Assembly (NCBI GenBank): GCA_027024145.1
Contig: JALVTF010000011.1
Span: forward strand, 1-54,158
Reading direction: 5' to 3'
Source of the DNA: Campylobacterales bacterium
GTDB lineage: Bacteria; Campylobacterota; Campylobacteria; Campylobacterales; Nitratiruptoraceae
DNA: 54,158 nucleotides
This document shows, one piece after another, positions 1 through 34,281 of the stretch. The translations under genes and the position numbers were made by a program. Below the pieces are notes generated by a model. That model saw only the letters and a program-made list of their open reading frames with translations. It was not told the DNA's origin and ran no database searches. Every line of letters begins with the position of its first letter. Position 1 is the stretch's first letter.

Positions 1-333
1 GGCCACAGGGTCTATGAAGTCGAAAGCGGTATCGAGGGGCTGGAATTTTTGGAAAATCTCGAAAAAGAGGCTGAGCGTGAAGGCGTGGATATCACAGACA
101 AGATCCAGCTCATCATCAGCGATATCGAGATGCCGGGGATGGATGGTCTGACATTTACGAAAAAAGTCAAAGAACATCCCATCTTTTCCAAAATCCCAAT
201 CGTCATCAACACCTCGCTTTCGGACAAAGCGACGGTGGACAAGACGCGCTATGTCAACGCCGATGCACATCTGGTGAAATTCGATACCAAAGATCTCTTG
301 CACATCGTGCATGAGTACGCTATCAAGAAATAG
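1..333 (+). CDS. cheV: CheV-type chemotaxis coupling protein, C-terminal receiver domain (5' partial)
   Basis: The reading frame is open from base 1, so the gene begins outside the window. What is visible is the end of a response-regulator receiver domain: the phosphoacceptor motif ISDIEMPGMDG followed by IPIVINTSLSD and a conserved lysine near VKF. CheV proteins join a CheW-like domain to such a receiver and couple chemoreceptors to CheA in an adaptable way. The CheW half is missing here, so CheV is inferred from the receiver's sequence character and from cheY following at once with a strong ribosome binding site (aggagg, 332-337). Another two-component receiver protein is possible but less likely. 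Confidence 0.75.
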   Translation, partial: GHRVYEVESGIEGLEFLENLEKEAEREGVDITDKIQLIISDIEMPGMDGLTFTKKVKEHPIFSKIPIVINTSLSDKATVDKTRYVNADAHLVKFDTKDLLHIVHEYAIKK

Positions 334-2067: not shown

Positions 2068-3510
2068 ATGTACAAAAACCTCTACAACAAAAGAGGGATC
2101 GAGCCCAAAAACATCGAATCACCCTTCGAGCTGAACGAGCTCTTTTTCTCCATCACCGATCCCAAAGGGGTGATTCTTACGGGCAACGACGTGTTTGTCA
2201 GGGTGTTGAAGATGAGCAAAGAGGAGCTCATCGGCAAGCCACACAACATCATCCGCCATCCCGATATGCCGCGTGCTATATTCAAGGCTCTGTGGAGTAC
2301 TATCAAAGCCGGCAAACCCTTCGTGGGCTACGTCAAAAACATGGCAAAGGATGGGAGCTACTATTGGGTTTTGGCTGCAGTGTACCCCGTCATGGATGAA
2401 AACGGTGAAATAGAAAAATATATCTCCATCCGCCTCAAGCCAAGCTCCAAGATGTTCGAAATCATCCCTGATCTCTATCGCGAACTTCTCGAATATGAGA
2501 TCAAAAACGATATGGATGCTGCTTTGGAGCTTCTGGGCAAAAAGCTCAAAGAGCTCGGATATGAGAGCTACGAAGAGTTCTCCAAACGCGTATTTTTCGA
2601 AGAGGTGCAAAGCAGAGAAAAGCTGATCAAAAGCGACGACAATGTCAACTGTCAGGTAGATCTATCAAACGTGACAGCGGAAAATGCCGAATTTATCGAT
2701 CTTTTGTGCAATCTCGAGACGGTCTTTTTTCGCATCAATCGCTACTTCAACGAAATTTTCGGCAAGGTCAATCTCTTTTTGAATCTCAACGAAGAGCTCA
2801 ATAAAAAGAGCCAATTCATCTACGAACTGGCCGAGGATATACGCCTGCTCTCTCTCAATGCCTCCATCGAGAGCTATAAGGTCAAAAAAGAGGGGGTCTC
2901 TTTCTCCACGCTCTCACACGAAATGCGTAAGAACGCGGAGCTGAGCGAAAGAAAGATCTTGCAGCTGAGCGACATCATCGAGGATACCAAAAAGGATATC
3001 GAAGATATCGGCTTCAATATCCTCACATCCAAGCTGGTCATAGAGATGATCACTTTCTTTATCAAAGAGATGATCCAAAACCTCTCACACATGACGGTAG
3101 AAGATACGCGCCAAAAAGAGGTGATCGAAAACCTCAAAAACCTCTTTGCCCTTTTGGTGCACTACTCCCAAAATCTCTCCACCAATATCGACGCTTCTAA
3201 AAGTCAGCTGCGCTCGATGTTTTACAATATCCAAGAGCTCAACGTCCTCATCAACCGCCTCGACTTCATCCATATCAACGGCCTCATCGAATCGGCGCAT
3301 ACCAAAGGGGACGGCGGAGGTTTTACCATCATCTTCTCACAGATGCTCAAACTCATCGAAGCGGCAAAAAACGAGATCATCAATCTCGAGACAAGCATAG
3401 CAAACGCCAACGAAGAGAATCTCTCGGTCAATCTCATTACCGACGTAGCGCAGCAAAAAATAGCGAAACTCCAAAAAGAGTATGGCGAGATCTTCGCCCA
3501 GTATGTCTAA
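2068..3510 (+). CDS. PAS-domain signalling protein with degenerate chemoreceptor-like helical region
   Basis: 480 residues, no transmembrane helix. The N-terminal PAS domain (about 20-125) resembles the Aer aerotaxis type, with the motif HNIIRHPDMPRAIFKALW and a KDGSYYWVLAAVYPV strand pair that often surrounds a flavin or haem. The rest is helical. At about 255-295 there is an eroded chemoreceptor tip (LLSLNASIESYKVKKEG, then FSTLSHEMRKNAE), and a second similar segment lies at about 395-435 (HINGLIESAHTKGDGGGF). Neither keeps the canonical tip, so direct CheA coupling is doubtful. A redox- or oxygen-sensing partner of the preceding chemoreceptor is the best guess. Its stop codon overlaps that of the convergent ParA-like gene. 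Confidence 0.75.
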   Translation: MYKNLYNKRGIEPKNIESPFELNELFFSITDPKGVILTGNDVFVRVLKMSKEELIGKPHNIIRHPDMPRAIFKALWSTIKAGKPFVGYVKNMAKDGSYYWVLAAVYPVMDENGEIEKYISIRLKPSSKMFEIIPDLYRELLEYEIKNDMDAALELLGKKLKELGYESYEEFSKRVFFEEVQSREKLIKSDDNVNCQVDLSNVTAENAEFIDLLCNLETVFFRINRYFNEIFGKVNLFLNLNEELNKKSQFIYELAEDIRLLSLNASIESYKVKKEGVSFSTLSHEMRKNAELSERKILQLSDIIEDTKKDIEDIGFNILTSKLVIEMITFFIKEMIQNLSHMTVEDTRQKEVIENLKNLFALLVHYSQNLSTNIDASKSQLRSMFYNIQELNVLINRLDFIHINGLIESAHTKGDGGGFTIIFSQMLKLIEAAKNEIINLETSIANANEENLSVNLITDVAQQKIAKLQKEYGEIFAQYV

Positions 3511-4310
3511 CCGATGATCTCCTCGAGTTTGGCGAAGGCCGGCTTGAGGATGCGTTCGTTGTATTTTTCGCAGTCGCTTTTGAGGGCTTTTTTGAAACTA
3601 AGTCTTTTGATCTCTTCCTTGGTTGCGCCGTTTTTGATAGCCTCGCGCAATTCCGCATCCACGTCCATATCCATATTTGCAAACTCCCAGAGCGTGATAC
3701 CAAAGGCGCGCGAATATTTGATGGCGTCGCTATCGGCCAAGACAAGATAGTTGCGATCTTTTTCGTCGATGTAGTTGATCACGCCTTTGGTATCAAAAAA
3801 GCCGTATTTATCGCCTAAGAATATATCGAACTGCGACTCGATCTCGCGATTTTCGTTCCAGCGGTTGAGGGCGAAGATGGTTTTGATATCGGGGTTTGCG
3901 TTTTTGACCTTTTGGTAGATGTTGATAGCGCTCGTGGCGTCGAGCTCACCATCCATGAGAGGGATCACCACGCTATCAAGAGCGTATATCATTCCGCTTT
4001 CGACTAGAGCGTCGAGGACATAGACGGCAGTTTTGTTCGCACCGATATCCATGACGATGTTGTTTTCGAGTAGCAAAATATCGCGTAGCTCTTCACGCAG
4101 ATCCAAACCTGCCACGCCCACGCGTTCGAGCCAGACAAGCCTACTCTTTTCGAAAGAGATGCTATCTTCGTTCTCGTCGTCAAACTCGAAAAATGATACG
4201 GGATTGTGAGATTTTTGGTAGAGGTAGGGAGTGACAAGCTGCATACTGATGGTGCTCTTGCCCACTCCCCCTTTGGTGTTGATGACTGCGATTTTTTTGA
4301 AATTTGGCAT
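3507..4310 (-). CDS. ParA/MinD-family P-loop ATPase (orphan)
   Basis: 267 residues beginning with a deviant Walker A (NTKGGVGKST, residues 11-20), the signature of ParA/MinD/Soj ATPases that dimerise on ATP and position DNA, chemoreceptor arrays or other cargo. A Walker B-like segment follows (NNIVMDIGANK), then VVIPLMDGELDATSAI. No parB-like gene is adjacent, so plasmid- or chromosome-type partition is not supported. The location beside a cytosolic chemoreceptor suggests it could place cytosolic chemotaxis clusters (compare ParC/PpfA), which is inference. It has its own -10 (4339-4344) and a 7-bp inverted repeat in its leader. The stop overlaps the convergent PAS gene by 4 bp. Confidence 0.8.
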   Translation of the reverse strand: MPNFKKIAVINTKGGVGKSTISMQLVTPYLYQKSHNPVSFFEFDDENEDSISFEKSRLVWLERVGVAGLDLREELRDILLLENNIVMDIGANKTAVYVLDALVESGMIYALDSVVIPLMDGELDATSAINIYQKVKNANPDIKTIFALNRWNENREIESQFDIFLGDKYGFFDTKGVINYIDEKDRNYLVLADSDAIKYSRAFGITLWEFANMDMDVDAELREAIKNGATKEEIKRLSFKKALKSDCEKYNERILKPAFAKLEEIIG

Positions 4311-4312
4311 TC

Positions 4313-4339
4313 TTACCCCGTCTATTGGTCTTGGGGTAA
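4313..4339 (-). promoter_or_regulatory. Inverted repeat in the leader of the ParA-like gene
   Basis: Perfect 7-bp arms TTACCCC (4313-4319) and GGGGTAA (4333-4339) with a 13-nt spacer lie between the -10 box and the start codon of the ParA-like gene. It could be an operator or an RNA stem near the transcription start. Function is inferred only from position. Confidence 0.4.
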
Positions 4340-4344
4340 TTATA
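4339..4344 (-). promoter_or_regulatory. -10 promoter element of the ParA-like gene
   Basis: On the minus strand the box reads TATAAT, preceded by TGG (extended -10 character), about 30 nt upstream of the ParA-like ATG. No good -35 is visible, as is normal for Campylobacterota sigma-70 promoters. Confidence 0.55.
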
Positions 4345-4357
4345 CCAAAAGCGGCGC

Positions 4358-5530
4358 TTAGTGGGAGCAGCCGCAGCTGCCACCACCATTATTGTGACCA
4401 CCACCTTGGGAGCCAGCTGCCGTGGAGCATGCAGAGACTCCCGGAGGTGTGGTGGGCTGGATCGCTTCGTTGCTGGCACCCCCCTCTTCATTGACTTTTT
4501 CTATGAAGTGCCAGAGCTTGTTGGCCGCTTTGTGGTAGCGCTTGGCCGTTTCGCTCTCAGGATGATAAAAGACCACGGGCTTGCCCTCGTCTCCTCCCTC
4601 GCGAATCGCCGGCTCGATGGGGATCTCACCCAGCACGCTCGTGCCATATTCGAGCGCCACGTCGTGCGCCGTGCCTTTGCCGAAGATATCACTCTCGGTG
4701 TGACAGCTGGGGCAGATGAAACCACTCATGTTTTCTACGATACCGGCGATGGGGATATGGAGCTTTTTGAACATATCGAGGCTGCGTCTGCTATCATCGA
4801 GGCTCACCATTTGCGGCGTGGTGACGGTCACACCTGCAGTGACAGGGACGCTTTGGGCCAGTGTCAACTGCGCATCGCCGGTGCCTGGAGGCATATCGAT
4901 AAAGAGCACATCCAGATCGCTCCACAAAATATCGCGCAGGAACTGCTCGATCGCCTTCATAATCATGGCACCACGCCAAATCAGCGACTGCCCCTCTTCC
5001 AGCAGTACGCCCATACTCATCACTTCTACGCCGTACTCGGTCTCGATAGGTTTGACCTTATTGCCCACCACTTCTGGCTGGACGCCGAGGATGCCCAGCA
5101 TTCTCGGGATATTGGGACCGTAGATGTCTGCATCGAGGATACCCACCTTCTTGCCCTGCATCGCAGTAGCGATAGCGAGGTTGACAGTGGTGGTCGATTT
5201 GCCCACTCCCCCTTTGCCACTGCTGATCATCACGAAGTTTTTGACTTGGGGGGCCAGGTTTTTGCCGCGGCTGGAAGTCTCGCGAGGCATCTTGGGCTGC
5301 TTGATATTGACGATCACCTCTTTGGCCCCTTCGAGGGAGAGTTTTTTAGTGATCTCGTCACGCAGCTGCTGTGCCACTTCTGGTGCGCTGGAAGTGACAT
5401 CGAGGTCTACGACCACTCTATCGCCGTTCACTTCGACGTTCTTTACAAAACCGAAAGTAACGATATCTTTGGTAAATCCCGGATATGCAACGGTGGAGAG
5501 AACCTGTTGCACTTTCTCATTGGTCAGCAT
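4358..5530 (-). CDS. mrp: Mrp/ApbC (NBP35-type) iron-sulfur cluster carrier ATPase
   Basis: 390 residues. The N-terminal DUF59/MIP18-like domain (about 1-80, containing VVVDLDVTSSAP) is followed by a P-loop domain with Walker A GKGGVGKST at 105-113, the motif DADIYGPNIPRMLG, MPPGTGDAQL and the cluster-binding CPSC (C273, C276). Family members bind a [4Fe-4S] cluster at a dimer interface and pass it to apo-proteins in the cytosol. The likely customers nearby include the Fe-S enzymes ThiC, Nth and MutY. An extra glycine-, histidine- and cysteine-rich tail ends the protein (GGGSCGCSH). The start has RBS aaaggag and a -10 at 5546-5551. Confidence 0.93.
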   Translation of the reverse strand: MLTNEKVQQVLSTVAYPGFTKDIVTFGFVKNVEVNGDRVVVDLDVTSSAPEVAQQLRDEITKKLSLEGAKEVIVNIKQPKMPRETSSRGKNLAPQVKNFVMISSGKGGVGKSTTTVNLAIATAMQGKKVGILDADIYGPNIPRMLGILGVQPEVVGNKVKPIETEYGVEVMSMGVLLEEGQSLIWRGAMIMKAIEQFLRDILWSDLDVLFIDMPPGTGDAQLTLAQSVPVTAGVTVTTPQMVSLDDSRRSLDMFKKLHIPIAGIVENMSGFICPSCHTESDIFGKGTAHDVALEYGTSVLGEIPIEPAIREGGDEGKPVVFYHPESETAKRYHKAANKLWHFIEKVNEEGGASNEAIQPTTPPGVSACSTAAGSQGGGHNNGGGSCGCSH

Positions 5531-28817: not shown

Positions 28818-30020
28818 TCAATACAAAAATCCAAACAGCCATAATGGAATGATATTTTTGCTCCCTACCTCGATATCGTCACGCACTACAAAAGCGTTCT
28901 CGATATCTTTGATTTGGCTCTTTGATTTGTTTTTGCCACCTATTTCGAAAACATATCCATCTACCACGAAATCACCCTTGGTAGGTATGTAAATCTCATA
29001 GTCTTCTAACATCGATGCGAAAAACACCTCTCGCACCGCACCAATCTCTCGCACATCGCAGTAGCAGTAGTGGAGGTTGGCATTATTTAGATATATTTTT
29101 TCTGGCTTCGTTAGTAGCGCATCCTTTTTATTGGCGCTTTTGATGAGTCGCAAGATTTTAGCTTTTTGTAACAGTTCCAAATATTCATACATTTCCGCAT
29201 ACGCCGTCTTCGCCATATCCATTTGTGCCAAAAGTTTTTGGATATTGGGCTTGTATGGATAGGAGGTGCAGATATATTCGATAAGTTTTTTAAACTTTCG
29301 TATCGTTGTGTATTTGATATTAGAAACGGCAGGTAAATCCACTTCGAGCACCACATTGACAGTCTCTTTGAGCTTGAGCAAATATGCACTCTCATCTCGT
29401 GTTTCAAAATAAAACGGGTAGTATCCTACTTTTATATACTCTTTGAAATCTGGGAGAATCGATGGCTTCTCTATCTTTTGCGTGATCGCAAACACGATAT
29501 CGACGGAGTTTTTTATAAGATCTTCCAAACGCACCGGCTCGATTGTGAGGCCATACTTAAACTGCAAAAACTCTCTAAAAGACATACCTTTGACTTTTCT
29601 AAGTAGTAATCTTCTGCTCAGATCAGCTTTCGCATGATCGATCGAGAGTGCGCTGCTTCCGCTCACAATCACACGCAAAGCAAAGAGATCATAGATTACT
29701 TTGAGCTCTTTTTCGAAGTTTGGGTATTTGTGGATCTCATCGATGATGAGGAGTTTGCCATTTTCTTTATAAAAAGCATCGGCAATTTCAAAAAGAGTCT
29801 CTGCATCAATCCAATCGGCGCTTATATAGAGCTTTTCACTGGCTGGAAGCGGTAATTCCTGGAGATACTGCAAGAGCGCGGTCGTCTTCCCTACGCCACG
29901 TGCTCCCACTATCGCAAGAAGCTTTTCCTCACTTTGCAATGCGTCATAAAAATATCTTTTATGAGAAGTTTTGAGATTGCGAAGCAATGCATATTGAAAC
30001 TTTCTGAAGCGATCCAGCAT
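28818..30020 (-). CDS. AAA+ ATPase with DUF4143-type C-terminal domain, copy 1
   Basis: 400 residues. N-terminal AAA (AAA_14-like) domain: Walker A GARGVGKTT (39-47), Walker B LLIIDEIHKYPN (D94/E95), sensor-1 SGSSAL and a paired arginine in DLSRR. A winged-helix-like stretch lies around 235-285, and the end (about 340-400) has a PD-(D/E)xK-like pattern, GDFVVDGYVFEIGGKNKS. Such proteins are common in archaea and bacteria, often mobile, and of unproven function (possible DNA- or protein-targeting ATPase/nuclease). It is about 70% alike over the C-terminal 90 residues to the gene at 30646. Two palindromes precede its start. Confidence 0.85.
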   Translation of the reverse strand: MLDRFRKFQYALLRNLKTSHKRYFYDALQSEEKLLAIVGARGVGKTTALLQYLQELPLPASEKLYISADWIDAETLFEIADAFYKENGKLLIIDEIHKYPNFEKELKVIYDLFALRVIVSGSSALSIDHAKADLSRRLLLRKVKGMSFREFLQFKYGLTIEPVRLEDLIKNSVDIVFAITQKIEKPSILPDFKEYIKVGYYPFYFETRDESAYLLKLKETVNVVLEVDLPAVSNIKYTTIRKFKKLIEYICTSYPYKPNIQKLLAQMDMAKTAYAEMYEYLELLQKAKILRLIKSANKKDALLTKPEKIYLNNANLHYCYCDVREIGAVREVFFASMLEDYEIYIPTKGDFVVDGYVFEIGGKNKSKSQIKDIENAFVVRDDIEVGSKNIIPLWLFGFLY

Positions 30021-30028
30021 TCTATACC

Positions 30029-30048
30029 TTTATAGTTATGACTATAAA
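30029..30048. promoter_or_regulatory. Start-proximal palindrome upstream of ATPase copy 1
   Basis: TTTATAGT-TATG-ACTATAAA: 8-bp arms with a 4-nt spacer, ending 8 nt before the ATG at 30020 and touching its ribosome binding site (AAAGG on the minus strand). Its centre is 33 bp from that of the next palindrome. It is a candidate operator for autoregulation or repression. Confidence 0.6.
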
Positions 30049-30060
30049 AATTATAACATA

Positions 30061-30082
30061 ATTTATAGCTGTTGCTATAAAT
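30061..30082. promoter_or_regulatory. Distal palindrome upstream of ATPase copy 1
   Basis: Arms ATTTATAGC (30061-30069) and GCTATAAAT (30074-30082) around TGTT. The inner TATAG half-site matches that of the start-proximal palindrome, so one protein may bind both. Confidence 0.6.
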
Positions 30083-30134
30083 ATTTACTCGTTACCTTCG
30101 CCACCCTCCCCTCTTTGCCTTAAATTTTGTACAC

Positions 30135-30140
30135 TATATT
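30135..30140 (+). promoter_or_regulatory. -10 element of the OB-fold gene
   Basis: TATATT 30 nt upstream of the start of the OB-fold protein, following an A/T-rich tract; no clear -35. Confidence 0.4.
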
Positions 30141-30169
30141 TTACAAATCTTTGACAACAAGGATACTAA

Positions 30170-30511
30170 ATGAAAAAGATAGCTCTCATTTTGCTCTCTT
30201 TCGCAGTAGCTTTTGCGACATACAGCACGAACGAAGCAAAGAAGCACATCGGTGAATATGCCAAAGTTTGTGGAAAAGTTTCAGGTGTCTATCATCATAG
30301 AAACGGCCATCTCTTTCTTGATCTCGACGGCAGATACCCACACCAGAAGATGACCGTGGTTATCTGGAAAGAATATGCAGATAACTTCGACTCCATGCAC
30401 TTCAAAAATAGGCGCATCTGCGTCCAAGGCCGCATCCGTCTCTACAAAGGCAAACCGGAAATCTTCCTCAAATCAAGATCACAGCTGACGATGCAGCGTG
30501 GTAGGCGGTGA
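30170..30511 (+). CDS. Periplasmic OB-fold protein
   Basis: 113 residues with a signal peptide (about 1-16, MKKIALILLSFAVAFA). The mature part has the strand pattern of a small OB-fold domain: YAKVCGKVSGVYHHRNGHLFLDLDG, then MTVVIWKEYADNF and RICVQGRIRLYKGKPEIFLKS. Exported OB-fold proteins of this type (BOF or thermonuclease-adjacent families) bind cations or oligomers; the ligand is unknown. RBS aagg at 30159-30162. It lies between the two AAA ATPase copies but has near-genomic base composition, so it may be core rather than cargo. Confidence 0.7.
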   Translation: MKKIALILLSFAVAFATYSTNEAKKHIGEYAKVCGKVSGVYHHRNGHLFLDLDGRYPHQKMTVVIWKEYADNFDSMHFKNRRICVQGRIRLYKGKPEIFLKSRSQLTMQRGRR

Positions 30512-30552
30512 TTTATATACGCTGAGGAAAATTTATTTCATAATACTGCACG

Positions 30553-30572
30553 TATCCTTATTGGTAAGGATA
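30553..30572. repeat. 8-4-8 palindrome downstream of the OB-fold gene
   Basis: TATCCTTA-TTGG-TAAGGATA, perfect arms with a 4-nt spacer. It has the same geometry as the palindromes in front of the two ATPase genes but a different half-site. It is not followed by a T-run, so a terminator is unlikely. Confidence 0.5.
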
Positions 30573-30584
30573 TAACAGCCTTCT

Positions 30585-30608
30585 CTTTTCCTTGCAAATA
30601 AGGAAAAG
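30585..30608. terminator. Hairpin between convergent OB-fold and ATPase copy 2 genes
   Basis: CTTTTCCTT (30585-30593) and AAGGAAAAG (30600-30608) form a 9-bp stem with a 6-nt loop between two convergent genes. A bidirectional terminator is plausible from position, but neither side has a proper U-tract. Confidence 0.4.
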
Positions 30609-30645
30609 GCAAAAAGTGCAACCAGCCCGCTATAGAAGAATATTT

Positions 30646-31857
30646 TCAATACAAAAATCCGAAAAGCCAAAGGGGAATAACGTTTTTGCTTCCTATTTCG
30701 ATATCATCTCGCACTATAAAAGCATTTTGGAGATCTTTTATCTGATATTTGGTCTTATTTTTACCGCCAATTTCAAAGATGTATCTCTCATCAACAAAAA
30801 AATCACCTTTTTTTGCCACTTGCAATTTATATCCTTCCAACATCGAAGCAAAAAAGGTCTCTCGCACCGTCCCAATCTCACGTTTAGGACAATACGCATA
30901 ATGGAGATTGGTATTATTGAGATAGATTTTTTCAGGTTTTGTCAAAATTGCATCTCCTCTATATTTACTCCAAAGAAGTCTCAAGATTTTGGATTTTTGT
31001 AAATAATAAAAGTATTTATACAACCTTTTATAATCATGTTTGCTCATACCCATCTTTACCAGAAACTCTTGCATATTGAGCAAAAATGGATGGCTTTCAC
31101 AAATCAACCTTACAATTTTTTTCAGTTTTGTAACAGTCTCATACTCTATTGGAAAAATCGAGGGAATATCCACTTCTATAGATGTATTTACAACTTCATT
31201 AAGCTTTTTTAGATAATTTTCCTTATCATCAAAATAAAAAGGATAGTATCCCTTTTGGACAAATTCTTTAAATTTTGGTGCGAGTAATAATTGACTTGAG
31301 AGTTCATAAGCTATATTGGTATGATTTTGCAAAATCTCTTCAAGTGAAAAGGATGGAAGTGAAATCCCTAAATCCATCTCTAAAAACTCTCTAAAAGAGA
31401 GTCCTTTTACTTCATACAAAAGCGCTCTTCTGCTCAAGTCGGCTTTTGCATGGTCAAGCTTTAATGCACTACTCCCACTAAAAAAAAGTCGAACATTTAA
31501 AACGTCATAGATCTTTTTAAGTTCAATTTCGAAATTGGGATATTTATGGATTTCATCAATAACGACAACTTTACCACCCTCTTTCACAAAATCCTTAACA
31601 ACTTCAAAAAGCGAATCGATCATAATAAAATCGGCACTAATATAGAGCTTTTCTTTAAACTCGGCAGGATATGCAAGCAGATACTGGATCAAAGCGGTGG
31701 TCTTCCCTACACCTCTCGCCCCAATAATCCCTATGAGTTTTGAAGAATTACGAAAGACTTCATCATAAAAATATCTTCTATACTTTTTTTCTTTGTATGA
31801 AGAAAATATCTCCATTTGGTAATCATAGATTTCGTTGAGTATTCCGTTTTCAAACAT
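30646..31857 (-). CDS. AAA+ ATPase with DUF4143-type C-terminal domain, copy 2
   Basis: 403 residues, a paralogue of the gene at 28818 over its whole length: Walker A GARGVGKTT, Walker B VVVIDEIHKYPN, SGSSAL, DLSRR, and the nearly identical ending (FEIGGKNKTK, then AFIVRDDIEIGSKN and IPLWLFGFLY). Its base composition is clearly more AT-rich than that of copy 1 and of the flanking genes, so the two were probably acquired or have drifted separately rather than arising by a recent local duplication. RBS AAAGGTGAG. Two palindromes precede the start at the same positions as in copy 1. Confidence 0.85.
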   Translation of the reverse strand: MFENGILNEIYDYQMEIFSSYKEKKYRRYFYDEVFRNSSKLIGIIGARGVGKTTALIQYLLAYPAEFKEKLYISADFIMIDSLFEVVKDFVKEGGKVVVIDEIHKYPNFEIELKKIYDVLNVRLFFSGSSALKLDHAKADLSRRALLYEVKGLSFREFLEMDLGISLPSFSLEEILQNHTNIAYELSSQLLLAPKFKEFVQKGYYPFYFDDKENYLKKLNEVVNTSIEVDIPSIFPIEYETVTKLKKIVRLICESHPFLLNMQEFLVKMGMSKHDYKRLYKYFYYLQKSKILRLLWSKYRGDAILTKPEKIYLNNTNLHYAYCPKREIGTVRETFFASMLEGYKLQVAKKGDFFVDERYIFEIGGKNKTKYQIKDLQNAFIVRDDIEIGSKNVIPLWLFGFLY

Positions 31858-31865
31858 TTCTCACC

Positions 31866-31885
31866 TTTATGTCCTTAGACATAAA
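31866..31885. promoter_or_regulatory. Start-proximal palindrome upstream of ATPase copy 2
   Basis: TTTATGTC-CTTA-GACATAAA: 8-bp arms, 4-nt spacer, ending 8 nt before the ATG at 31857. Position and geometry equal those of the copy-1 palindrome at 30029-30048, but the inner half-site bases differ (ATGTC against ATAGT). Confidence 0.6.
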
Positions 31886-31898
31886 AATTATAGCATAT

Positions 31899-31918
31899 AT
31901 TATGTTCACAAACATAAT
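31899..31918. promoter_or_regulatory. Distal palindrome upstream of ATPase copy 2
   Basis: ATTATGTT-CACA-AACATAAT, 8-bp arms, 4-nt spacer. Its centre lies 33 bp from the centre of the proximal palindrome, the same as in front of copy 1. Confidence 0.6.
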
Positions 31919-31961
31919 TTATAGAGAATTTCGCTCCTAAGGAAGCTTCTTGTTGATGTAA

Positions 31962-32135
31962 GTCACTTATATAAGTCCAGTATCATATATAAGTTATTTA
32001 GTAGCTTATCAAACCACACTCAAGCAAGAGATGACCTCACTACTAGAAGGTATGCAGTATGTTGGCATTAATGAAGCTCTTTTGATTACCGCCAATAAAG
32101 TTGAGAGCGTCGAAACTAATGGCAAAAAATTGTGA
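31962..32135 (+). pseudogene. Remnant of the C-terminus of an ATP-binding (DUF4143-type) protein
   Basis: An open plus-strand stretch without a start gives YLVAYQTTLKQEMTSLLEG, then MQYVGINEALLITANKVESVE, TNGKKL and a stop. This matches the usual C-terminal nuclease-like end of mobile AAA/DUF4143 ATPases (a pattern like 'K.RE...LL.A....GL.EGLIIT......I..NGKKI'). The AAA domain is gone and the last strand is cut off. The rest of the 31921-32304 gap shows no gene I can support. Confidence 0.45.
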
Positions 32136-32304: not shown

Positions 32305-33330
32305 TTAATCTTCTTCGGGCACTACAATCCAAATCCGTTTCATAGGAAGTTCTGCTTGAATTTCGTCAGGGAGTTTTTCATAACTGTCCAATAGATTGGC
32401 AATCAACTTTTTGTCATCCCACAGTCGCACCTTGAAAAATAGATCTCGAATATTACCCATTGCTGTTTTATTGAATCCATCCCATGAAACAAAAAGACCT
32501 TGTTCCGCACCTACCCGGCTCATCACTCCTTCGAGTTCCCGAATGGCTGAATCATTTTGAACACCTCCAGATTTTACCTGAACACAAAGTCTAGGCTTAT
32601 CAAAACCCATAGGGCCGAAACCGGCAAGTATATCAACCCCACCATCGGGCCCTTCTGGAGCCCTATAAGTTTGATAGCCATGCACATTTAAAATTGCCTC
32701 CACAAGTCGTGTAAGATTGTGACCTTTAAACTTGGATTCGATAAGCCGACGTATTTGATCAAATGCTTGCTCTTCTAAATCAATAAATGCTTGTCCATCT
32801 TCTCCAACAGTCTCTGCAGTATAATTGTCAGCTATTTTTACCTTCTTCATACCAAATTGGAGATCAGATCTTCCATCTAATATTGCTTTGACTCTTTCTT
32901 CTGCATTATTACGTTTTATTTGGCATACAGTCATAAATGCACCAAATGAATATAGAAGATCTTGACCAAATGCATTTCTTGGGATATCTTCCTTTATCCA
33001 CTTCACTTTTCGAACATGTCGCCCATCTAAATATTGGTAGTCCCCAGCGATTTCGCCAATTGCTATTGCAGACCTTGTTTTTAGTGGAAGAACCACTAGA
33101 TCGCCCTTTTTAATTTTTTTTGAAAAGGCCCATAACTGAGCAGCATTATTCATTACAGCTTTTGGTGACATATCCGGGTAAACTTCTGAATATTTTTGCT
33201 TCATTTCATCATAACTTTGAATATAGGAAAGATCCGGCATCTCACGCCATCCAATTATAGCCATCCCTTTGTTAAGAGCTGTAGTCTCATCCTCTCCATG
33301 TTTTCCAGCCCGAATTAGCCACAAAGCCAT
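32305..33330 (-). CDS. Mrr-family restriction endonuclease with EVE/PUA-like N-terminal domain
   Basis: 341 residues. The C-terminal domain (about 190-300) is Mrr-type PD-(D/E)xK: E211, GPDGGVDI with D233, then Q251-V-K253 and RELEGVMSRVGAEQGLFVSWDGF. The N-terminal 120 residues (AIIGWREM, then QLWAFSKKIKKGDLVVLPLK and AIGEIAGDYQYL) resemble EVE/PUA-like modified-base readers. Together they suggest a type IV enzyme cutting modified foreign DNA. RBS AGGAG precedes the ATG. It lies in the accessory region, transcribed like the AT-rich gene upstream. Confidence 0.83.
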   Translation of the reverse strand: MALWLIRAGKHGEDETTALNKGMAIIGWREMPDLSYIQSYDEMKQKYSEVYPDMSPKAVMNNAAQLWAFSKKIKKGDLVVLPLKTRSAIAIGEIAGDYQYLDGRHVRKVKWIKEDIPRNAFGQDLLYSFGAFMTVCQIKRNNAEERVKAILDGRSDLQFGMKKVKIADNYTAETVGEDGQAFIDLEEQAFDQIRRLIESKFKGHNLTRLVEAILNVHGYQTYRAPEGPDGGVDILAGFGPMGFDKPRLCVQVKSGGVQNDSAIRELEGVMSRVGAEQGLFVSWDGFNKTAMGNIRDLFFKVRLWDDKKLIANLLDSYEKLPDEIQAELPMKRIWIVVPEED

Positions 33331-33423
33331 TTTTGTTACTCCTATATCGCTAACGATTGCATTGAAAATATTTGGCCCATATGGTCAAATATTTCTCTCC
33401 AACGGTTTCTTAAGTTTATTATA

Positions 33424-34281
33424 TTAAATAATTTTTTCAGTATGAGCTTTACTTAAATATGCTAAATTCAATTTATTATCTAATGGAGAAAAAGTATTTG
33501 CTTTTTTTATAGATATTTTAAATAAAGAAGCAATAGTACCCAATATTGTAACGATAGGTACATGTATTCCACTATACCAATTAATTAGATCTACATATGC
33601 TATTCCTTTTAATATATCTTTACCATTGATATTCATTTCAATACTTAAATCATATTTTGTAAATGATTTAAATTTTTCTTTTTGAACTCTTTCTATATTA
33701 TTTATAGTTTCTTGAAGGTTTTTTATTGCTTTTAATTGCATTAAATCTGGATCTGGAGATTTTAAAATTTCAAAATATAGTTCATCCAATGTATCGTGCA
33801 GAGACAAAAATTCATCTTTTCTTCTTTCTTTAAATTCAATAATATCATAGATGGGAACATCATCATTTGGGACAGGTAATATATTCATGAGTTCAAATTT
33901 AAAGATTCTCTTTTTAACAATTTTATCATCTGGTAAAACAATTTGATTATTAAATTGATGAATTGTCCAATCAACTTCTTTATCTTGTATTTTTTCTTCA
34001 ACAATTTTGCTTTCTCCATATAATATTGCTTTCCCAAGCTCAGAACCATTAAAACTTCCTTGAAAACTAACAATAGGTCTTTCTATGATATTACTTTCCA
34101 CTAAATCTTTTTCAAAAGGTACTCCTACATATATAAAATTGTTTGCAGGAATAATAATTTTATCCCAATATAATAAAAAGTATTTTACATCATTTTCAGA
34201 TAATCCACCATTTCTTGTATCAATAGAAAAACCATTGGATTGTATATTGATTTGTGCAGCAGTTGCAATAATACCTCTCAT
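33424..34281 (-). CDS. Hypothetical protein, strongly AT-rich (accessory)
   Basis: 285 residues, no signal peptide or clear membrane helix. The opening (MRGIIATAAQINIQSNGF, then YFLLYWDKIIIPANNFIYVGVP) recalls a family of uncharacterised proteins (possibly DUF6236) that turns up near defence genes, but I am not certain. The second half is helical and charged, followed by a hydrophobic stretch (VPIVTILGTIASLF). Base composition is far below the genome average, a clear sign of recent transfer. It is 93 bp upstream of the Mrr gene in the same orientation, so the pair could form a unit. Confidence 0.65.
   Translation of the reverse strand: MRGIIATAAQINIQSNGFSIDTRNGGLSENDVKYFLLYWDKIIIPANNFIYVGVPFEKDLVESNIIERPIVSFQGSFNGSELGKAILYGESKIVEEKIQDKEVDWTIHQFNNQIVLPDDKIVKKRIFKFELMNILPVPNDDVPIYDIIEFKERRKDEFLSLHDTLDELYFEILKSPDPDLMQLKAIKNLQETINNIERVQKEKFKSFTKYDLSIEMNINGKDILKGIAYVDLINWYSGIHVPIVTILGTIASLFKISIKKANTFSPLDNKLNLAYLSKAHTEKII

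Follow-up and report, generated by a model that had tools for sequence, protein, structure and literature searches.

Closest described systems

The C proteins of restriction-modification systems have twin palindromic operators that overlie their own promoter, likewise with group-specific half-sites; unlike the ATPases proposed here as repressors, they are small helix-turn-helix proteins distinct from the enzyme. ATPase and transcription regulator are joined in one protein in MalT, and regulators of the MalT and IniR type are activators without a nuclease-like domain. The signal-transduction ATPase regulator IniR likewise unites an ATPase and a transcription regulator in one protein (PMC5760070). 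AbiE is likewise a defence-related locus that represses itself via multiple inverted repeats, but its repressor is a separate antitoxin, whereas in the present case the proposed repressor is the effector-like ATPase (PMC7319586). In restriction-modification islands RptR likewise represses a defence locus via repeated palindromic promoter sites; it is, however, small and dedicated to regulation, with a single conserved site of 6 bp, whereas the sites described here vary from gene to gene (PMC12255303).

PDC-S01 is a single-gene phage defence candidate that joins an ATPase to a PD-(D/E)XK-type domain, an architecture which the two proteins described below would share. By frequency it was ranked fourth among the defences of prokaryotes, with detections numbering 29,494 in bacteria and 9,986 in archaea; most such candidates still await validation (PMC12988326). 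The accessible part of that account mentions neither operators nor autoregulation. No description of autoregulation of PDC-S01, COG1373, AAA_14 or DUF4143 ATPases was found in the parts consulted of openly accessible journal papers.

Two paralogous ATPases and their relatives

The window, i.e. the whole stretch of 54,158 nucleotides that was analysed, encodes two such ATPases:

28818..30020, minus strand: ATPase gene 1 (400 aa; AAA_14 ATPase, internal predicted winged helix, PD-(D/E)XK-like C-terminus)
28821..29087, minus strand: PD-(D/E)XK-like C-terminus of ATPase 1 (residues 312-400; conserved residues in 73 sequences)
29088..29312, minus strand: predicted winged helix of ATPase 1 (residues 237-311 of the AlphaFold2 model; coordinates computed from residue numbers)
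29163-29201, minus strand: predicted recognition helix of ATPase 1 (residues 274-286)
30646..31857, minus strand: ATPase gene 2 (403 aa; paralogue of gene 1, 56% identical)

Both proteins matched PADLOC profiles for PDC-S01 (best E 3.1e-25 and 5.8e-20), with profile PDLC04787 aligned to residues 27-354 in the first protein and 27-356 in the second; the assignment is by profile match, independent of PADLOC's coverage and score rules. Their AAA_14 (PF13173) scores of 86.4 and 80.4 bits, respectively, were above the gathering score of 27. The original prediction, made from the sequence alone, had labelled both as DUF4143 proteins as well. This label had to be dropped: the gene 1 protein scored 14.7 bits for DUF4143 (PF13635), below the gathering score of 28.1, and for the gene 2 protein the Pfam search at E up to 1 did not list the domain. 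The assembly itself gave no DUF4143 match at E 1e-8. It does encode a third paralogue (48% identity) on another contig.

The AlphaFold2 model of ATPase 1 (73-row alignment, mean pLDDT 91.7) showed an AAA core, a helix-helix-helix-strand-strand segment at residues 237-311 and a nuclease-like C-terminus. The order of modelled elements in this segment (H237-252, H260-266, H274-286, E290-295, E308-311) fits a predicted winged helix of three helices and a beta wing. Comparison with the PDB gave, among the 50 matches listed, mainly AAA-type ATPases. In the C-terminus D350, E359 and Q369 were invariant and K363 was found in at least 90% of the 73 sequences, a D/E/K/Q set which we take to be PD-(D/E)XK-like, with E-x3-K spacing versus E-x-K in the PD-(D/E)XK criterion.

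Relatives were taken from the best 80 of 173 matches in one public-genome scan and from 397 genomes of Campylobacterota, 86 of which carried at least one at E 1e-20. None was present in the seven other genomes of the same genus that were drawn. There were 32 records of carriage on plasmids and one record of a relative in phages, and none was found on viral contigs with the Runella protein as query. Patchy spread and plasmid carriage are what one would expect if the genes serve defence or are selfish.

Twin palindromes at both promoters

Upstream of each ATPase gene we found two palindromes on either side of a putative promoter box:

30029..30048, no strand: putative operator O2 of gene 1, TTTATAGT-TATG-ACTATAAA, perfect, ending 8 nt before the ATG
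30050..30055, minus strand: TATAAT of gene 1, extended -10 form TGTTATAAT, by direct reading
30061..30082, no strand: putative operator O1 of gene 1, ATTTATAGC-TGTT-GCTATAAAT, perfect, centre 33 bp from O2
31866..31885, no strand: putative operator O2 of gene 2, TTTATGTC-CTTA-GACATAAA, perfect, ending 8 nt before the ATG
31887..31892, minus strand: TATAAT of gene 2, extended -10 form TGCTATAAT, by direct reading
31899..31918, no strand: putative operator O1 of gene 2, ATTATGTT-CACA-AACATAAT, perfect, centre 33 bp from O2

Direct reading bore out the predicted geometry for all four palindromes, with centres at 30038.5 and 30071.5 for gene 1 and at 31875.5 and 31908.5 for gene 2, arms of 8 bp (once 9 bp) and spacers of 4 nt. 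As also predicted, the half-sites differ between the genes at equal spacing, being TTTATAG(T/C) for gene 1 and (T/A)TTATGT(C/T) for gene 2. The sequence TGnTATAAT lies between both palindromes of each gene; neither box was listed by a consensus scan for -35 and -10 elements, which needs a -35 hexamer. O1 would cover the spacer and the -35 region, and O2 the expected start site.

The window contained six perfect palindromes of the 8-4-8 form, five of them within 30.0-31.9 kb, while ten windows simulated from a first-order Markov model held 1.0 on average. We further scored pairs of palindromes with one half-site in common. Four twin pairs in the window scored at least 17.5, as against none in the ten simulated windows: those of genes 1 and 2, one at 30553-30606 and one at 34.3 kb that is AT-rich. 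Twin operators had been predicted at the two genes only, and the pair at 30553-30606 had been missed. A chance origin of the twin palindromes was ruled out by these simulated windows together with the shuffles and AT-rich control promoters reported below.

Recurrence of the layout with other letters

A gene-specific palindrome, present in two copies that flank the TATAAT box at fixed spacing, recurs in relatives with other letters. We evaluated 195 upstream regions of homologues in Campylobacterota, which are distinct, though not independent. A pair score of at least 18 was reached by 41 of them and missed by 154. The centres were 33 bp apart in 24 of the 41 strong pairs and 32-34 bp apart in 34, so that the expected recurrence was found, with a spacing that is not universally 33 bp. 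TGnTAnnnT stood between the sites in 20 of 37 strong pairs. As controls served 109 AT-rich upstream regions, out of 265, of other open reading frames in the loci L005-L084 and the window (mean AT content 0.73, versus 0.77 in the homologue regions); three of the 109 had a pair of at least 18, two of these at distance 32. At distances of 26-44 a score of 18 was reached by 1.0% of 390 dinucleotide shuffles versus 19.5% of the real sequences. Averaging the palindrome score around the -10 box over 194 sequences was uninformative, because the box itself yields the highest peaks; offsets of -15.5 and +15.5 ranked ninth and tenth.

Among copies on plasmids of Bacteroidota, six of 18 loci had a pair at 32-33 bp with a score of at least 16.5, a cut-off that 7 of the 109 AT-rich controls reach, 3 of them at 32-34. 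Pair scores were 22.5 in Emticicia (L225), 21.0 in Persicobacter (L222), where a further site lies 33 bp upstream, 19.5 in Segatella (L223), 18 in Parabacteroides (L252), and 16.5 both in a broken copy from Bacteroides (L251) and in Runella (L221), there equalled by another distance. The Persicobacter copy thus has three in-phase putative operators with spacings of 33 and 32. The other 12 loci, including the subgroup L245-L249, stayed below 16.5 at 32-33 bp. This subgroup is without a convincing pair; L246, L248 and L249 adjoin nifJ, and it might perhaps represent a domesticated member.

For genuine DUF4143 genes from the order, with 30 loci obtained from 40 matches and 26 of them evaluated, the best upstream pair lay at 32-34 bp in 8 of 26, mostly with modest scores. 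The third paralogue of the genome analysed here had just one clear palindrome.

Helix classes, half-sites and spacing

Because calls at a score of 16.5 include mis-registered sites (L033, L089, L096), we sorted the 195 proteins by the four residues that start the predicted recognition helix and searched each class for a palindromic motif, leaving the spacing free. This gave 19 classes, nine of them smaller or weaker. The half-sites of the other ten were as follows:

DYQT: TTTATGGTT
NYKG: ATTAGAnTT
SRNT: CTTTTCAAT
NRNT: TTGCTTATT
DRDT: ATTTGGATT
SWPT: TTATAAAAT
DDRT: ATATGTAnT
SRAK: TTGTCTACA
SRVK: TAAATGTTT
NRKT: TTGTTTA (odd centre)

The distance to the second-best site was 33 in 12 of 13 members of DYQT, 34 in all nine of SWPT and 32 in eight of nine of DRDT, with wider distances in SRVK (44 in four of seven) and SRAK (51 in six of eight).

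For the shuffle test we used 12 classes with 122 of 145 sequences. The motif likelihood exceeded that of shuffles in all 12, least clearly in SEPT; the first run had 16 start points for shuffled versus 40 for real sequences, and a repeat with 20 for both had the same outcome. An unconstrained second site fell at 32-34 bp in 76 of 122 real versus 22 of 244 shuffled sequences, a second-site score of at least 5 occurred in 68 versus 42, and both together in 52 versus 4. Of the 16 second sites that scored at least 5 outside 32-34 bp, 15 belonged to SRAK and SRVK members at their own wider spacing. No second site of at least 5 was seen in 54 of the 122, including NRKT (14 of 14), SHPT (5 of 6) and SEPT (5 of 6). 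Given these class-specific distances and the members lacking a second site, 33 bp is therefore the commonest among few spacings, and some members have a single clear site. In all 12 classes a mirror-repeat control, which preserves the relatedness of the sequences, fell short of the palindrome in likelihood, though by a narrow margin in DDRT and SHPT. Second sites in this control were at 32-34 bp in 54 of 122, because the sites are direct repeats in related sequences.

Helix classes are clades, and the association between operator and helix is therefore partly one of descent. As a lead only, since it was counted after the data were seen, an R or K at helix position 2 went with a G in the outer four half-site positions in 7 of the 10 basic classes and in 0 of 9 others (19 classes). 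Tandem members with differing operator types (TTGAAGT and TTATGGT) were seen at 3001-4188 and 4297-5481 of locus L017, and L132 carries tandem members of different helix classes.

The ATPase as its own probable repressor

Exact palindromes of each window type occurred in the assembly (91.8% complete) before their own gene only. Places with one mismatch numbered two for type 1, below the reversed-pattern control, and one for type 2, with none in the control. In flanks of up to 3 kb around 186 loci the commonest neighbouring family was present at 11. A neighbouring regulator was rejected on this ground, no conserved neighbour being found within these flanks of up to 3 kb.

Differing helix classes were found in 65 of 66 same-genome pairs from 31 multi-copy genomes. 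The one same-class pair compares with 4.97 expected (P 0.03, label shuffling), a modest effect that concerns helix classes, not operators; to this extent the idea that the paralogues diverged to avoid crosstalk received support.

For covariation we compared operator distance with distance over protein windows, corrected for distance over the other parts of the protein. The signal peaked at about residues 279-297, which span the latter half of the predicted recognition helix and the strand that follows. When operators were called without reference to classes, the partial r was 0.30 for residues 280-294, and in a second run 0.30 for 285-293 and 0.38 for 288-296. Operators called with class motifs gave 0.26, 0.31 and 0.43 over all and closer pairs, the all-pairs value being biased by that way of calling, and 0.38 within classes; the segment of the winged helix was top in four of five such settings. 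Among between-class pairs only, the top window was 224-234, with 280-290 fourth, and the winged helix was not singled out. The predicted covariation between operator and protein hence appeared in most tests, though not between classes and not where the recognition helix begins. Reading of the half-site by this helix start was unsupported, with window 272-280 ranking 78 and 265 of 392; window 274-282 came seventh in the larger set.

Sites before the own gene only, the lack of a common flanking family, the 65 of 66 pairs and the covariation peak therefore point to the ATPase itself as the binder. That each ATPase reads its own operator, as originally proposed, is favoured by recurrence, differing half-sites and covariation with the winged helix; binding is what we infer from these, and in a ranking of single residues the best ones were scattered across the protein. 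Recurrence of the layout with changing letters suggests repression of each gene by its own product. We consider it likely that each ATPase is an autorepressor with a private operator and its gene a solitary, self-regulating one.

A separate transcription factor encoded elsewhere could also bind the palindromes, the survey around each gene having spanned 3 kb or less. This appears improbable, as each paralogue within a genome would need a factor of its own (judged directly here and by helix class elsewhere), plasmid copies bring their own operators, and the exact window-type sites lie nowhere else in the assembly. Still less probable is a selfish gene whose nuclease-like domain has its targets or attachment sites in the palindromes. 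The patchy distribution, the plasmid carriage, the conserved D/E/K/Q set and the third pair with its other half-site type past the 3' end of gene 2 would all suit such a gene, but the gene-specific sites flank the promoter box and not both gene ends, and no perfect 8-4-8 palindrome is near the 3' end of gene 1. Leader RNA hairpins or terminators are very improbable and were rejected on palindrome position and a terminator scan: O2 directly before the ribosome-binding site could fold, but O1 lies upstream of TATAAT and would not be transcribed from that promoter, both copies are alike in sequence and spacing, and the sole terminator-like site in 30000-32000, at 31386, is away from the palindromes.

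With the ATPase as its own repressor, the predicted winged helix, placed after the AAA_14 domain and before the nuclease-like C-terminus, would read the half-site. Two dimers, perhaps coupled by the ATPase, might occupy about the same side of the double helix, three turns apart (four or five in some clades). At O1 they would keep RNA polymerase from the spacer and the -35 region, and at O2 from the start site. Expression might be held low until a trigger, such as the ATP state or DNA on the nuclease-like part, releases the dimers. If operator and winged helix change together, paralogues in one cell would be insulated. A nuclease-like protein that arrives alone would presumably need its own brake, which a self-read operator could supply, and a private half-site may let newcomers escape silencing by residents.

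On balance, and by a small margin, we also favour a broader reading in which a large and little-studied class of mobile, solitary ATPase-nuclease-like genes of the PDC-S01 type works as one-gene circuits: the effector would repress itself, winged helix and twin operator would diversify together in an incompatibility-like manner, and orphan pairs, such as the one between the two genes here, would mark lost members. If so, several members could share one cell without cross-repression. The operator and its likely matching DNA-binding domain offer a first handle on the binding partner, the target of repression and the releasing signal. The helix classes with their half-sites form a natural collection of potentially orthogonal repressors, on which ideas about the evolution of protein-DNA specificity can be tested.

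A third, orphan pair in a variable island

The third pair lies between a convergent OB-fold gene and ATPase gene 2, about 40 bp past the 3' end of the latter, with no family member behind it:

30553..30572, no strand: orphan palindrome, first half of the third pair, TATCCTTA-N4-TAAGGATA
30587..30606, no strand: orphan palindrome, second half of the third pair, imperfect within 8-4-8

Its half-sites read T(A/T)TCCTT(A/G), with a centre distance of 34 and a score of 19.5. Pairs of the TATCCTT type at the same distance precede DUF4143 ATPases in L273, from another genome of the genus, and in L275 (scores 16.5 and 16.0). A weaker pair of this type (distance 34, score 16.5) occupies the same place in L300, from another genome of the genus (82% complete), whose OB-fold protein is 87% identical to that of the window. 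ATPase gene 2 and its neighbours are absent there, and the methionine synthase gene follows after 521 bases, versus 4131 in the window. The stretch from the OB-fold gene to the methionine synthase gene is a small variable island, and the simplest reading of the third pair is that of a relic of a lost member.

Beside ATPase gene 2 the window also carries, at 32305-34281, a Mrr-type restriction endonuclease gene and a DUF6236 gene, which are absent from L300. Positions 1-40 of L300, at the contig edge, look like part of the operator region of gene 1, inside which the contig would begin, with a site TTTATGGC/ATTATAGT and the 13-nt gap retained and the letters changed.
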